Assembly (NCBI RefSeq): GCF_010993705.1
Contig: NZ_WOFO01000007.1
Location: 1-64,000 of the forward strand
Length of the DNA stretch: 64,000 nucleotides
Origin: Cyclobacterium sp. SYSU L10401
GTDB lineage: Bacteria; Bacteroidota; Bacteroidia; Cytophagales; Cyclobacteriaceae
Direction: 5' to 3'
Part shown: positions 715 through 18,203 of the stretch, piece after piece
Layout of the letters: each line of letters opens with the position of its first letter
Position numbering within the stretch: the first letter of the stretch is position 1
The notes under the pieces: model-generated
Seen by the model: only the letters and a program-made list of their open reading frames with translations
Databases searched by the model: none
Told to the model about the DNA's origin: nothing
Translations under genes and position numbers: made by a program

Positions 715-2244
715 ATGGAAAAAACCTTAAGACTCATTTTGGGTGACCAGCTGAACCGGCAGCATTCCTGGTTTAAAAAAAAGGATGCGGCAGTGGTTTA
801 CCTGATCATGGAAATGAAGCAGGAAACGGATTATGTCCGGCACCACATACAGAAAGTGCTGGCCTTTTTTCAATCCATGCGGATGTTTGCCGAATGGCTA
901 AAAAAAGAAGGGCATCAGGTAATCTACCTGAAAATAGATCAAACCGAAAACCGGCAGGAGCTGGAAAAAAACATCCGCTTTATTATCCAACGGGATAATT
1001 TCAAACATTTTAATTATATCCTTCCTGACGAATACAGGTTGGATAGGCAACTCAATGACATCTGTAAACAGCTGGATATCGAAACAAAAAGTTTTGATGC
1101 CGAACACTTTTTAAGCGACAGGCAGGCCGTAAAATCATTCTTTTCGGGTAAAAAAACTTTCCTGATGGAATCATTTTACCGGTCTATGCGTGTCAAACAT
1201 GACATCCTCATGCAGGGCAAAAAGCCGGCGGAGGGAAAATGGAACTTTGACCAGGAAAACAGGAACAAATACCGGGAAGAGGTAAAAATCCCGCCACCCC
1301 CCGTTTTCAAGCGAGACTTGAGCCAGCTGCACGATAGCATCAAAGCTGCCGGTATTAAAACCATCGGAGAAGCAGACCCCAAAAACTTTCAATGGCCCTG
1401 TTGCAGGGAAGAGGCCATGGAATTGCTGGAGCATTTTTGCGACAAGTTGTTGCCCCATTTTGGCCAGTATCAGGATGCCATGCATTCCCAACACCCATTC
1501 CTGTTCCACAGTAGGCTCAGCTTTGCCCTAAACAGCAAAATGCTGCATCCCCTGGAAGTGATCCGAAAGGCTGCTGCCTACAGGGAGGAGGCTCCGGAAA
1601 AGTATGGGATGGCACAGGTAGAGGGCTTTATCCGTCAGATACTCGGCTGGAGGGAATTTATGCGGGGGATCTATTGGGCGAAGATGCCGGATTATGCTCT
1701 GATGAACTTCTTTTCCCACAAACGGCCCCTGCCGGCATTTTTTTGGGATGGGAACACCAAAATGAATTGCCTCAAACATGCCATCGGACAATCCCTGGAG
1801 CATGCCTATGCGCACCACATTCAGCGGCTGATGGTCACTGGAAATTTTGCCTTGCTGGCCGGAGTTGATCCGGATGAGGTGGACCAATGGTACCTGGGGA
1901 TTTATGTAGATGCCATTGAATGGGTGGAAATCACCAATACCCGGGGCATGAGTCAGTTTGCGGATGGCGGCATTGCAGGTACCAAGCCCTATGTATCTAC
2001 TGCCAACTACATCGACAAAATGAGTGACTATTGTGGTAGCTGCCATTATTCCAAAACCAAAAAAACAGGAGATAAGGCATGCCCTTTTAATAGCTTGTAC
2101 TGGGCATTTTATGAAAGGAACCGGGACAAACTTGAAAAAAATCCCCGTATCGGCTTCGTATATAAAACCCTTTCGAAAATGAAGCAAAAGGATGAAATCC
2201 TGGCGCAGGCGGAAAGTTATTTGGAGAACCTGGATGAGCTTTAA
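715..2244 (+). CDS. Fe-S cluster photolyase/cryptochrome (CryB/PhrB-type, (6-4) photolyase-like)
   Basis: This 509-residue protein belongs to the deoxyribodipyrimidine photolyase-related family (FeS-BCP). Its N-terminal Rossmann domain opens with LILGDQLN, followed by a long helical FAD-binding domain. Four cysteines (C352, C440, C443 and C456; last three in the pattern C-x2-C-x12-C) correspond, shifted by two residues, to the [4Fe-4S] ligands described for Agrobacterium PhrB. Members use blue light, FAD and a ribolumazine antenna to repair (6-4) photoproducts; signalling roles are also known in this family. The ATG at 715 gives full family length. It appears monocistronic. No other light-related gene is nearby, so whether it repairs DNA or acts as a sensor cannot be decided here. 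Confidence 0.92.
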   Translation: MEKTLRLILGDQLNRQHSWFKKKDAAVVYLIMEMKQETDYVRHHIQKVLAFFQSMRMFAEWLKKEGHQVIYLKIDQTENRQELEKNIRFIIQRDNFKHFNYILPDEYRLDRQLNDICKQLDIETKSFDAEHFLSDRQAVKSFFSGKKTFLMESFYRSMRVKHDILMQGKKPAEGKWNFDQENRNKYREEVKIPPPPVFKRDLSQLHDSIKAAGIKTIGEADPKNFQWPCCREEAMELLEHFCDKLLPHFGQYQDAMHSQHPFLFHSRLSFALNSKMLHPLEVIRKAAAYREEAPEKYGMAQVEGFIRQILGWREFMRGIYWAKMPDYALMNFFSHKRPLPAFFWDGNTKMNCLKHAIGQSLEHAYAHHIQRLMVTGNFALLAGVDPDEVDQWYLGIYVDAIEWVEITNTRGMSQFADGGIAGTKPYVSTANYIDKMSDYCGSCHYSKTKKTGDKACPFNSLYWAFYERNRDKLEKNPRIGFVYKTLSKMKQKDEILAQAESYLENLDEL

Positions 2245-14541: not shown

Positions 14542-15066
14542 TTACAATACTGCACTTACCCGAATATCCTTTTCGATTTCAGGTCGCCATTCTTTTTGAT
14601 TGGACATGGTATTACATATCTTTTCATGATAGTAAACCTGATACCAGATTTCCTTGGGAAACGCACAAAAACCCGCATAAACCTTCTCCGAATGTATCAT
14701 TAATTTCAGGAGAAACTCCTCTTTAGGTTCCCTATGCTTGTTAATTACCTGACTCAAACTTACCGAAGTAACCGCTATATCTCGTGCAAAATCACTTCTC
14801 TTTGAGTATAAGGTATCGATATACGATTTTAAAAACTCTAAAAAATTGCTGTGATTATCATGCGCCGGGTGCTTAATGTATTCGTCCATCCTTAATTTCA
14901 ATTGCATAAGTTTTGCCTTGGTAATTTTCTCTTTTGACAAATTTTTCATCCTCCTTAACCTGGCTTCCATCAAAGCAGCAGCATCGGATTTACGCTCCTT
15001 TTCAGAGCTGTATCTTGAATCTACACCAAACTCTGTATCCAACTTATCTTTGGTATTTTCAGTCAT
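14542..15066 (-). CDS. HTH protein, putative antitoxin of a GNAT-like/HTH pair
   Basis: 174 residues in three parts: a charged, helical N terminus (1-65, coiled-coil-like, KSDAAALMEARLRRMKNLSKE); a helix-turn-helix of XRE/HigA character near 90-125 (SDFARDIAVTSVSLSQVINKHREP, quoted in pieces); and a C-terminal part rich in aromatic residues. The ATG at 15066 overlaps the preceding gene by 8 bp, so translation is probably coupled. Order toxin first, DNA-binding antitoxin second, as in HigBA. I do not know a characterised homologue. It could also be a simple two-gene regulatory unit with an acetyltransferase. An inverted repeat upstream of the pair could be its operator. Confidence 0.6.
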   Translation of the reverse strand: MTENTKDKLDTEFGVDSRYSSEKERKSDAAALMEARLRRMKNLSKEKITKAKLMQLKLRMDEYIKHPAHDNHSNFLEFLKSYIDTLYSKRSDFARDIAVTSVSLSQVINKHREPKEEFLLKLMIHSEKVYAGFCAFPKEIWYQVYYHEKICNTMSNQKEWRPEIEKDIRVSAVL

Positions 15067-15526
15067 TGTCGTATAAATTTATTAAGGCTAAAATTTGAGG
15101 AATTTCCATACTCAATGTCAATCCAGTTAAATTCATGTTATATGTCTCCATATAGTGTCGGGCAATTTGACTTTTAGGTCTCAGGGAAACACATGCCAAT
15201 TCTCCGAATTCCCGAAGCGCTATTTTTGCTACAAATGCCATCAGATTTCCTATGATTTTGTCGTATTTTTTCTCCTTTCCTTTGTTTTCCTTTGAGACTG
15301 TCAATAGTCTGATATGTATTCTCCATTCTTCAGGAATCCTTTCAATAGAGACAAGCCCAAAAACGTCACTCATACCTTTAATCTGCAATTTGTATACCTC
15401 CTGATGCTTCTCCTTTTTCCAGTCAAAAAAGTACCGTTCCTTTTTAAATGTTTTAAATTCGTCTATTTCAACCGGTAAAATGTCCACTAAACGTTTTTCA
15501 CCAGTTGACGTTTCTATGATTTTCAT
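15059..15526 (-). CDS. GNAT-like N-acetyltransferase, putative toxin
   Basis: 155 residues with a secondary-structure pattern that fits a small GNAT domain: strands VFGLVSIERI and WRIHIRLLTVS, then a basic loop NKGKEKKYDK where acetyl-CoA pyrophosphate would bind, a long helix (IIGNLMAFVAKIALREF), strand ACVSLRP, and the terminal helix with HYMETYNM, typical of the GNAT end. The usual Q/RxxGxG/A motif is degenerate. Known GNAT toxins (TacT, AtaT) acetylate aminoacyl-tRNA, but are normally paired with ribbon-helix-helix antitoxins; here the partner is an HTH protein encoded downstream with 8 bp overlap. ATG at 15526. Family assignment by fold pattern only. Confidence 0.5.
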   Translation of the reverse strand: MKIIETSTGEKRLVDILPVEIDEFKTFKKERYFFDWKKEKHQEVYKLQIKGMSDVFGLVSIERIPEEWRIHIRLLTVSKENKGKEKKYDKIIGNLMAFVAKIALREFGELACVSLRPKSQIARHYMETYNMNLTGLTLSMEIPQILALINLYDND

Positions 15527-16306: not shown

Positions 16307-17299
16307 TCAAAAAATGCCGTATTCCGAATCAGATTTAGGCATGGGCTGAAATAATCCTATCTGTCTGGCTTTTTTATCAATCATTACTTGATAAGCATCT
16401 TTCATTTCATCCGGAAGAAAGCTTTTTTCAACGAAAGCATACCATTCAGGTATCGTCTTTTTGAAACGCTCGAAGATATTATCGAATGCTTTCTGATCGA
16501 TTTCAAACCTTCTCATAGCGGCTTCAAAATCCCTTCTTGTTATTTTCCTTTTTTTTCCGTTAAGGGTGAGTGCCAATTCTTCGTTATCTCCTTCAACCAC
16601 CAATTGGGCAGCTACCATGTCATAAGCGGGACTCAGGTTGTATCCCCTTTTCGGATCCTTAAACAGGGAGAAGTTTTTCAGGTGCATGTCATTGTTACCG
16701 GTGAGGAAACAAAATACAACCTGCTCAAAAAAGTTGATGATGTCAAATCCGGGATTGGTCGAAAAGTGAACCAGTGCTTTTCCAATCTGTTCATAGGAAC
16801 CCCGATACTTCGATTCTGTTAACCGTTCGGTCAGTTGGCACATGTCTTCCATATGGAATTTTTGCTTTCCTTTTCTATCTATTCGTTTGGTGATGTAAGA
16901 AAGCTCACCTGACTTTAACCGGATCAGTGAATGCGGAACAGTCCTTATTCCGGCTATGGCTGCCAGGTGCATCGTCAGGTCTTCCAGCTCGGGTAAACAT
17001 GGAAAATGTTCACTCGGCGGTTTCAATATGTATCCGCCCCAAACACCCATAATCGTCAGTTTTTGAGGCGTATCTTTTTCAGTCATGGTTTCCAGCCCTA
17101 AGGAAAGCTTTGCCTGTACGCCGGTTACGGACGACTGCCGCTGTATAACCTTTTCAGCCAGTTCCAGCATCTGATCATTGGTATATTCCAATAGGGGAGG
17201 AACAGGCTTGCCGAATAGTTTCTTGCTGCATTTTGAGTGAAAATCCATTTCGCCTCCATCCAGTTCCTTATAGCAATATAGACAGCAATTTTTACTCAT
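16307..17299 (-). CDS. hipT: HipT kinase toxin (HipA C-terminal type) with N-terminal zinc-knuckle
   Basis: The likely ATG is 17299 (330 residues); an earlier ATG at 17326 adds nine basic residues. It has the HipA kinase fold without the N-subdomain 1, which is encoded separately by the preceding gene. The phosphate-binding loop contains S57-V58-T59-G60, matching in number the autophosphorylated S57-I-S59 of EPEC HipT. Catalytic D204 in NNDMHLKNF and metal-binding D227 in YDMV have the same 23-residue spacing as in EPEC HipT. HipA/HipT kinases phosphorylate aminoacyl-tRNA synthetases (GltX or TrpS) and halt growth. Unusual feature: the first 25 residues carry C6-x2-C9 and H21-x2-C24, a probable zinc knuckle. 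Overlaps hipS by 8 bp. Confidence 0.88.
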   Translation of the reverse strand: MSKNCCLYCYKELDGGEMDFHSKCSKKLFGKPVPPLLEYTNDQMLELAEKVIQRQSSVTGVQAKLSLGLETMTEKDTPQKLTIMGVWGGYILKPPSEHFPCLPELEDLTMHLAAIAGIRTVPHSLIRLKSGELSYITKRIDRKGKQKFHMEDMCQLTERLTESKYRGSYEQIGKALVHFSTNPGFDIINFFEQVVFCFLTGNNDMHLKNFSLFKDPKRGYNLSPAYDMVAAQLVVEGDNEELALTLNGKKRKITRRDFEAAMRRFEIDQKAFDNIFERFKKTIPEWYAFVEKSFLPDEMKDAYQVMIDKKARQIGLFQPMPKSDSEYGIF

Positions 17300-17627
17300 C
17301 TTCTTTTTCCTCTTCCATTGGTTCAATGCTCACTGCACCTATGCAATCTTGACATGTTTTAAGTAACAAACCCATCCGGTCACGTGCACTTAGTTTCCAG
17401 TTTTTTTCAGCGATATCCAATAACCAACCCTCCGGTATCAGACCGTCAAAAAACGGAAAGAGCACTTTATCCTGAAATGGTTTTTCCTGTAGCGGAAGTG
17501 TCAAACTTACCGGCTCGGCATTATCTTTTTTCAGATAAACATCCCTGTATTGGAAACGATATCCTTCCTCATCTTCTTGCAGGATTCCTGCCCAATCGGT
17601 GTACATATACACTTTAGCCTTTCTCAT
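17292..17627 (-). CDS. hipS: HipS, HipA N-subdomain 1 protein (antitoxin of HipT)
   Basis: 111 residues equal to the N-terminal subdomain found fused in classical HipA. Visible motifs are the two-strand start VYMYTDWAGIL, VSLTLPL near 40-46, and FPFFDGLIPEGW near 57-68, the hallmark of this domain. The tryptophan W68 lies where EPEC HipS has the residue described as blocking the HipT active site. In HipBST systems HipS and not HipB neutralises the kinase. ATG 17627 overlaps the end of hipB by 14 bp and its stop overlaps hipT, so all three genes are coupled. The acidic tail (EEEKEDE) is a local feature. Confidence 0.88.
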   Translation of the reverse strand: MRKAKVYMYTDWAGILQEDEEGYRFQYRDVYLKKDNAEPVSLTLPLQEKPFQDKVLFPFFDGLIPEGWLLDIAEKNWKLSARDRMGLLLKTCQDCIGAVSIEPMEEEKEDE

Positions 17628-17859
17628 GGATCAGTTTATTGCGATTAATTGGCACCGGGCCGAGTTCAAAACCAAACAAAACCAAAACCTGGTTGACCTT
17701 ATCCTTTTGCAGGGTAGGTTTATCTCGTTCTAATTCACGTACAAAACGTAAGCCTACGCCCGCTTTATCTGCCAGCTCCTGCTGGGTAAGCCCTAGTGCC
17801 TTTCGCTTCTCTTTTACGAAATGGCTTAACGGTTGCCCATATTTATTTACTGTATTCAT
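17614..17859 (-). CDS. hipB: HipB, XRE-family DNA-binding autorepressor
   Basis: From the ATG at 17859 the product has 81 residues: a Cro/C1-type HTH (VKEKRKALGLTQQELADKAG, quoted in part, near 14-33; recognition helix GLRFVRELERDKPTL) and a short C-terminal strand/tail VLFGFELGPVPI. An in-frame ATG 87 bp further upstream (17946) is rejected because the extra codons cover two palindromic operators and the predicted promoter. It should repress the hipBST operon by binding the TACCC-n4-GGGTA sites just upstream. First gene of the operon; overlaps hipS. Confidence 0.9.
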   Translation of the reverse strand: MNTVNKYGQPLSHFVKEKRKALGLTQQELADKAGVGLRFVRELERDKPTLQKDKVNQVLVLFGFELGPVPINRNKLIHEKG

Positions 17860-17871
17860 TCGTATGGTATT

Positions 17872-18006
17872 TACCCTTTCGGGTACAAAGATATAAAATA
17901 AGGTGATAATATACCCCTTCGGGTACAAATTAAAGCACCCATTCATTTATTATACCCTTTCGGGTGTAATTCTTTATTTTATCTAGAAATTGCACCCGTA
18001 TGGATA
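17872..18006 (-). promoter_or_regulatory. array of four HipB operators, 40-bp spacing
   Basis: Four copies of the 14-bp palindrome TACCC-n4-GGGTA: 17872-17885 (perfect), 17912-17925 (perfect), 17953-17966 (last base G), and 17993-18006 (CACCC-n4-GGATA). Centres are 40, 41 and 40 bp apart, about four helical turns, so bound dimers would lie on the same DNA face. E. coli hipBA also uses four operators. The first copy covers the predicted transcription start and the second lies at the -33 region. Confidence 0.85.
17886..17893 (-). promoter_or_regulatory. -7 promoter element of hipBST
   Basis: On the minus strand TATCTTTG matches TAnnTTTG exactly. It lies directly beside operator 1, so transcription would begin inside that operator about 20 nt before the hipB ATG. 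A -33 element is not recognisable at the usual spacing; operator 2 sits there. Confidence 0.5.
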
Positions 18007-18203
18007 CAATAAAAAGAGAGCAGGATCTACTTCTTAATCGAAATTTCAGAAAATTGAACGCAGAAGCGCACATTTTGCAAGCAGAAAAAATAATGGAAAA
18101 TACCCGAACCCTACAAAAGCGGTTTTTCATGGAAAGGAGCATAAAATTGAATCGATTCAACAAAAATAACCCCGAGCGAAACCCGGGGTCTTGGAGCCGT
18201 TAA
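18000..18203 (+). CDS. doubtful small ORF divergent from hipBST
   Basis: A 67-codon frame whose ATG lies inside the fourth hip operator. The product would be basic and helical (NAEAHILQAEKIMENTRTLQ) with a low-complexity end that is translated from a hairpin. No signal peptide or known motif. Its placement would make it a target of HipB, but the frame may be fortuitous. Confidence 0.22.
   Translation: MDTIKREQDLLLNRNFRKLNAEAHILQAEKIMENTRTLQKRFFMERSIKLNRFNKNNPERNPGSWSR
18169..18189 (-). terminator. candidate terminator read leftward
   Basis: ACCCCG (18169-18174) pairs with CGGGGT (18184-18189), loop of 9 nt. On the minus strand the hairpin is followed by TTATTTTTG. It could end a transcript coming from the alkaline phosphatase gene 330 bp upstream and so insulate the hip promoter. 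Confidence 0.5.

Follow-up and report, generated by a model that had tools for sequence, protein, structure and literature searches.

A ladder of evenly spaced 18-bp dyads as the predicted HipB operator array of a Bacteroidota hipBST operon

A 64,000-nucleotide stretch of DNA from Cyclobacterium sp. SYSU L10401 (hereafter the window) was analyzed and found to carry a hipBST operon preceded by four dyads, O1 to O4, spaced 40, 41 and 40 bp apart. This ladder is very probably the autoregulatory operator array of the operon, bound by HipB. Binding of HipB to the rungs is inferred from the conservation of the sites in relatives and from their covariation with the recognition helix of the protein.

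The hipBST operon of the window and its ladder

The genes and promoter elements concerned are the following, the core sequences of O1–O4 being given as read towards hipB.

hipB, 17614-17859, minus strand, ATG at 17859: HTH_3 and TIGR03070 (couple_hipB), a Y4mF-family HTH repressor; recognition helix at residues 34-44, GVGLRFVRELE
hipS, 17292-17627, minus strand: PF13657/TIGR03071 (Couple_hipA), HipA N-subdomain-1-like
hipT, 16307-17299, minus strand: PF07804 (HipA_C), Ser/Thr kinase toxin family
Predicted Bacteroidota −7 promoter element, 17886..17893, minus strand: TATCTTTG (TAnnTTTG), abutting O1
O1, 17870..17887, minus strand: 18 bp TGTACCCGAAAGGGTAAA, core 17872-17885 TACCCGAAAGGGTA; no mismatch to TACCC-N4-GGGTA, matrix score 19.9, rank 3; over the predicted transcription start
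O2, 17910..17927, minus strand: 18 bp TGTACCCGAAGGGGTATA, core 17912-17925 TACCCGAAGGGGTA; no mismatch, score 23.8, rank 2; over the −33 region
O3, 17951..17968, minus strand: 18 bp TACACCCGAAAGGGTATA, core 17953-17966 CACCCGAAAGGGTA; one mismatch, score 26.4, the best in the window
O4, 17991..18008, minus strand: 18 bp TGTATCCATACGGGTGCA, core 17993-18006 TATCCATACGGGTG; two mismatches, score 12.4, rank 4; the weakest rung, yet in register

An earlier sequence-only reading of this DNA had described a complete hipB-hipS-hipT order with overlapping frames, and this was borne out: the overlap is 14 bp between hipB and hipS and 8 bp between hipS and hipT, and all family matches of the three genes lie above the Pfam and NCBIfam cut-offs (for TIGR03070 on hipB, 77.6 bits against 71.65). 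PF13657 is confined to hipS and PF07804 to hipT, so that HipT lacks N-subdomain 1 and HipS is a separate protein. The window hipT is the sole HipA_C gene detected in its own genome. By sequence, the nearest solved structure is HipT(Lp) for HipT (E 3e-49), and HI_0666 followed by HipS(Lp) for HipS; for HipB a molecule named DBP48 comes first (E 1e-5) and HipB(Lp) second (E 5e-4).

HipS, which by its sequence is the expected neutraliser of HipT, carries the motif E66-G67-W68 at the wedge position, with W68 present in 149 of 151 aligned rows. The kinase motifs of HipT (Gly-rich loop, catalytic Asp and metal Asp, including D204 and D227) were all found in the window protein, and conservation in the aligned rows is nearly complete (G60 and K64 in 147/147, D204 in 144/144, D227 in 141/143). 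At the place in the Gly-rich loop where a Ser/Thr pair (S-x-S) would be expected, the window protein has S57 and T59. Over 147 aligned rows, T is the commonest residue at position 57 (85 rows), ahead of A (42) and S (18), while at position 59 T occurs 97 times and P 44 times. Position 57 aligns with the autophosphorylation serine of HipA and, since it is T or A in most rows, that phosphoserine may not control many of these HipTs. The N-terminus of HipT contains a C6-x2-C9 ... H21-x2-C24 cluster (window 17228-17284, residues 6-24) that is invariant in the aligned rows (C6 in 146/146; C9, H21 and C24 each in 148/148). Judged from sequence, it looks like a small zinc site in an N-terminal mini-domain, and the first 50 residues of HipT gave no match in PDB.

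The four TACCC-N4-GGGTA palindromes of the sequence-only reading lie at the places and at the 40–41-bp spacing that it gave, but they are not of equal quality, O3 and O4 departing from the pattern and O4 being weaker than had been implied. When the window was scored with a matrix whose training loci came from other genomes, including those of two close relatives (L001 and L002, Lunatimonas), O1–O4 were the four top-scoring of 63,983 positions, the fifth scoring 7.9. The single pattern is not rare: window-wide, TACCC-N4-GGGTA with at most one mismatch gave 4 matches versus 1.49 expected, and 8 of 100 shuffles reached 4. The 333-bp promoter was dinucleotide-shuffled 20,000 times without yielding a pair of such sites 39–42 bp apart. 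A degenerate two-site pattern, allowing 26–56 bp between sites, matched the genome at the window ladder only, with no match in the reversed control. Lone TACCC palindromes were also considered as a genome-wide regulon and rejected: TACCC-N4-GGGTR has 41 matches elsewhere in the genome versus 40 in the reversed control, which indicates that solitary palindromes are due to chance.

Operators in relatives and the recognition helix of HipB

Relatives were collected by a HipS search, from which the best 80 of 571 confirmed loci were taken, 79 of them with a hipB match. The locus without such a match (L035) was left out of the promoter analysis, and L029, with 5 bp upstream, out of the promoter shuffle test. 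These 80 are mostly from Bacteroidota; six (L006, L032, L042, L068, L076 and L078) come from assemblies labelled otherwise, some of them perhaps misbinned. In 79 loci, namely the window and 78 relatives from the best 80 of 571, sites departing from TACCY-N4-RGGTA at no more than one base numbered 227, versus a shuffle mean of 3.15, and 140 of the 149 adjacent spacings measured 39–42 bp (2, 45, 85 and 8). The array was in the 39–42-bp register in 76 of these 79 loci, the remaining three (L019, L060 and L069) having degenerate sites in register or 50–51 bp apart. A matrix of 242 sites, from loci among the same best 80 of 571, yielded an operator consensus of 18 bp, TATACCC-N4-RGGTATA; this dyad replaced the 14-bp TACCC-N4-GGGTA as the entire operator. 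The number of operators, which the sequence-only reading had supposed to be preserved at four, was rejected as a conserved trait, since ladders hold 2–5 rungs, most often 3.

In two further searches neither HipS nor a narrow spacing was used for selection. The two-site pattern with 26–56 bp allowed was run on 296 Bacteroidota genomes. It matched 16 places in 15 genomes, of which 14, counting that of the window, lie beside hipB; each of the 23 spacings linked to hipB was 40 or 41 bp, and the reversed control matched in three of the 296 genomes. Searching 395 genomes for HipB protein yielded 74 places, spread over 69 genomes and including every hipB found by the array pattern. From 213 HipB loci, 39 with less than 150 bp upstream or with an identical promoter were removed, leaving 174 non-redundant loci, among which near-identical promoters may remain, so that the held-out loci used below are not all independent.

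HipB loci without a TACCC array mostly have the helix GVALTV instead of GxGLRF, plus another ladder. Two classes of HipB, A (GxGLRF) and B (GVALTV), were accordingly defined by positions 36 and 38. The class B operator is TATATGY-N4-RCATATA, in ladders of 39–41 bp, and the half-sites of the two classes, from −9 to −3, read TATACCC (A) versus TATATGY (B). Motif A, trained on 77 loci, was tested on 60 held-out class A loci, one of them the window; 57 had at least two sites, with 108 of 109 spacings at 39–42 bp. Motif B was trained on 8 loci, and a class-wide search supplied 24 more for testing it (6 of 36 search places were without a locus and left out). All 24 held-out class B loci had at least two sites, with 45 of 47 spacings at 39–41 bp, and motif A was found in none of these 24. 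As both operators have the outer TATA, motif B also obtains weak scores in class A loci; the converse does not hold for motif A in class B.

Between residues 11 and 70 of HipB, only positions 36, 38, 39 and 42 fully separate the two classes; all four lie in the recognition helix, and 39 and 42 were not used in the class definition. They align with T27, Q29, S30 and Q33 of the 434 repressor, of which we take T27, Q29 and Q33 to be DNA-contact positions. Class B forms one clade of 32 tips (support 0.997; FastTree, 62 columns), so the change of helix and operator counts as one event. A single further locus, L144, has the helix GISLRL and TATATCA sites 40 bp apart; the switch thus comprises one clade plus one locus, that is, few independent events. 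This covariation of helix and operator, as far as sequence comparison can establish it, ties HipB to the ladder sites.

Both flavours occur in the genome of the window. Besides the window HipB, a second HipB with helix GVALTV lies at C19:212669-212881 (L153: 495-710), behind a three-rung class B ladder with spacings of 40 and 40 bp. This second gene is without hipST, and a Vsr endonuclease and a C5 cytosine methylase are encoded downstream (L153: 1069-2488). This genome also has, at C13:514582-514722 (L162), a remnant resembling HipB that is interrupted by in-frame stops and lacks a ladder.

Spacing geometry and ladders beyond hipBST

Spacing was analyzed across the 174 non-redundant HipB loci, a ladder being defined as an adjacent pair of class-matched sites 39–42 or 50–51 bp apart. 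All 148 class A or B loci with both hipS and hipT have a ladder, and 331 of the 342 pooled adjacent spacings are 39–42 bp (271/280 in class A, 60/62 in class B). The palindromes and their phasing of about 40 bp are thus kept upstream of orthologous hipB genes, and the outcome by which the sequence-only reading would have been refuted, a lack of such conservation, did not occur. Longer rungs occur in L065 (51 and 51 bp, with one of 39 bp) and L069 (51 and 50 bp). No adjacent pair fell at 43–49 bp save one low-complexity pair at 44; other odd distances were skipped rungs, or weak or low-complexity matches. In 101 class A loci with 41-bp pairs, identity was 75% in the operators and 34% in the spacer (31% expected): the spacer DNA is nearly random while sites and distance stay fixed.

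The last observation bears on whether the spacing could be a relic of common descent that is not under selection. The loci come mostly from one phylum and class B is a single clade, as such a relic would have it; nevertheless, fixed sites and distances around near-random spacers, the retention of about 40 bp in both operator classes and the occurrence of 50–51-bp variants in two loci all argue against it, and we regard mere descent as very improbable.

The sequence-only reading had placed all four operators on one face of the DNA, about four helical turns apart. At 10.5 bp per turn, each step of 40–41 bp rotates by −69 to −34 degrees, so the claim is approximately right for neighbouring rungs. 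It fails for the ladder as a whole: O1 and O4 are 121 bp or 11.5 turns apart and lie on nearly opposite faces, the offsets summing to about half a turn, and a strict same-face arrangement of the full ladder was rejected on this arithmetic. Steps of 28, 39–41, 50–51 and 71 bp each end before a full turn is completed, which indicates that neighbouring rungs are offset from one another rather than strictly on one face.

Ladders were also found in 18 of the 21 class A or B loci without both hipS and hipT. Since HipB genes lacking hipST are preceded by ladders, hipST is not required for the geometry. The class A loci without a ladder are L157, L159 and L161, none of which has both hipS and hipT. 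Among the neighbours of such HipBs, L082 has three perfect sites at hipB and then, in place of hipST, an ORF (760-1125, minus strand) with a sub-cut-off MqsR_toxin match (E 3e-4), and in L137 an Eco57I/MmeI-like restriction-modification enzyme (843-2498) lies downstream of a HipB with a ladder.

Arrays away from hipB were found by the two-site pattern in L083 (spacing 38) and L090 (spacing 37) among the 296 genomes; in L090 the spacers repeat too, which points to a tandem repeat. These two arrays are what would be expected if another host-encoded DNA-binding protein used the ladder and HipB were a passenger. However, the ladder tracks HipB and not HipS or HipT, the site sequence changes together with the HipB recognition helix, the genome of the window has only one class A ladder by the degenerate pattern, and its solitary TACCC-N4-GGGTR matches do not exceed the reversed control. 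On this evidence, use by another host protein is very improbable, a little more so than unselected descent, and HipB is the most probable ligand of the ladder.

Viral contigs were inspected with two HipBs as queries, which gave 13 loci, and an unsupervised dyad search. Weak dyad pairs were present in L222 (41 bp), L226 (28 bp), L227 (65 bp) and L228 (56 bp), none of the four containing motif A or B half-sites, and no ladder was found in L218, L219 and L223–L225, which have a class A- or B-like helix. In these last five, 117–133 in-frame open codons precede the HTH, which therefore resembles part of a larger protein more than a free-standing HipB. This counter-evidence applies to fused domains, and the probability given to the HipB reading of the ladder was left as it stood.

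Promoter, proposed autoregulation and known systems

The Bacteroidota −7 consensus is quoted as TAnnTTTG in PMC7366714, according to which the −33 motif was not recovered in Flavobacterium. Among the best 80 of 571 relatives, a −7-like TAnnTTT[GAT] adjoins O1 in 56 of 76 loci, O2 in 16 of 76 and O3 in 6 of 66; for strict TAnnTTTG the counts are 21, 3 and 0 loci. The enrichment at O1 upholds the earlier view, in which O1 spans the predicted start and O2 lies at −33. A rival idea is that the palindromes act as RNA hairpins or attenuators rather than operators. They are short GC inverted repeats within an AT-rich leader, as that idea would have it; O2–O4, however, lie upstream of the predicted transcription start, and the symmetry of the flanking TATA and the covariation with the HTH helix fit DNA recognition by a protein, which makes RNA structures extremely improbable.

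As operators, the rungs would each take up a HipB dimer or, alternatively, a complex of HipB with HipS and HipT. With O1 over the probable start and O2 over the −33 region, HipB bound at these two rungs should keep RNA polymerase off the promoter. The roughly constant angular offset of rungs 40–41 bp apart, or one turn more, would let neighbouring complexes touch and bind cooperatively. Additional rungs could steepen the repression response and act as a reservoir of HipB, and a drop in HipB level would let the operon be expressed again. The HipT kinase would be neutralised by HipS, probably via a Glu-Gly-Trp wedge as described for E. coli HipS. The E. coli hipBST promoter is repressed by HipB alone at high level, while leaky hipBST or hipBT suffices (PMC10627512), a difference suggesting that binding is strengthened by HipT or the complex.

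Evenly spaced operators are already known for Legionella hipBST, and several operators for hipBA, four in E. coli and three for each of Caulobacter hipBA1 and hipBA2 (PMC8545095). In Legionella, HipB binds three evenly spaced 18-nt sites, O1–O3, with 53-bp gaps and 6-nt repeats; these operators are called the first for a HipBST system, and homologues of HipBST-Lp are said to be widely distributed, particularly in the FCB superphylum, which includes Bacteroidota (PMC10653801). The window system resembles this one in having several evenly spaced 18-bp sites at the promoter and a HipT closest to HipT(Lp) among solved structures. It differs in spacing, about 71 bp centre to centre there and 40–41 bp here, with a −7-like element abutting O1; the comparison is one of spacing.

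The bicistronic hipBA operon of E. coli K-12 has four 18-bp sites of consensus TATCC-N8-GGATA, bound cooperatively by HipB (PMC3376134), with O1 and O2 28 bp apart as counted on the oligonucleotide printed there. The claim that half-site and spacer here are unlike those of E. coli stands in that the half-site is TATACCC rather than TATCC and the window system does not fit TATCC-N8-GGATA. The extent of the difference had been overstated: both operators are 18 bp long and share T, A, T and C at −9, −8, −7 and −5 (4/5 outer bases per half), and hence differ less than first stated. The hipBST system of E. coli O127 is like that of the window in its overlapping gene order, its HipS antitoxin (predicted as such in the window) and the E-G-W at the HipS wedge, where Glu63 and Trp65 have been described (PMC6581861, PMC10627512). 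It is a weaker sequence match to the window (HipT E about 1e-16), and the Legionella operator motifs are reported in PMC10653801 to be absent from its promoter.

Y4mF-family hipBA loci on Pseudomonadota plasmids (L231–L240), ten loci hand-chosen among the matches listed (40 of 99 records), contain 24 sites versus a shuffle mean of 1.3. They share with the window repeated dyads upstream of hipB, CCC at −5 to −3 and a GxGxRF-type helix; unlike the window, their core is TCCCG-N2-CGGGA without a TATA frame, and the spacing is 48–50 bp in 8 of the 10. L238 has a spacing of 38 bp, L239 is without a site, the two copies in L231 are identical, far upstream and may be a duplication, and hipA is missing from some of the ten, e.g. 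L239 and L240.

A literature search that covered few subscription papers found no report of HipB operators from Bacteroidota. In the literature searched, a Bacteroidota operator, the 40-bp ladder, the matched switch of helix and operator and ladders before non-hipST genes did not appear. HipB operators for hipBST are predicted here from sequence alone in many Bacteroidota. The presence in a single genome of two HipB paralogues, equally spaced in their ladders but different in operator flavour, constitutes a natural helix swap and makes two questions directly testable, namely how paralogous toxin-antitoxin repressors are insulated and whether cooperativity in HipB repression is set by rung spacing rather than by site sequence.

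We tentatively consider, as a possibility somewhat short of even, that HipB and its ladder are a portable repressor cassette with two separable codes, which also fronts other selfish systems. A helix/half-site code (GxGLRF/CCC, GVALTV/TGY and possibly GISLRL/TCA) would insulate paralogues within a common TATA frame. A geometry code would set rungs at whole turns minus a roughly constant fraction (28, 40–41, 48–51 and 71 bp being 2.7, 3.8–3.9, 4.6–4.9 and 6.8 turns), thereby giving repressor complexes a similar angle of encounter. The other systems fronted would be the restriction-modification enzyme, the Vsr/cytosine-methylase pair and the MqsR-like gene.

Downstream of hipT, the window also contains two overlapping ORFs, of 174 aa (14542-15066, minus strand) and 155 aa (15059-15526, minus strand). 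The pair gave no Pfam, NCBIfam or PADLOC match; by eye, the 174-aa ORF looks HTH-like, and the two are possibly an undescribed two-gene module.
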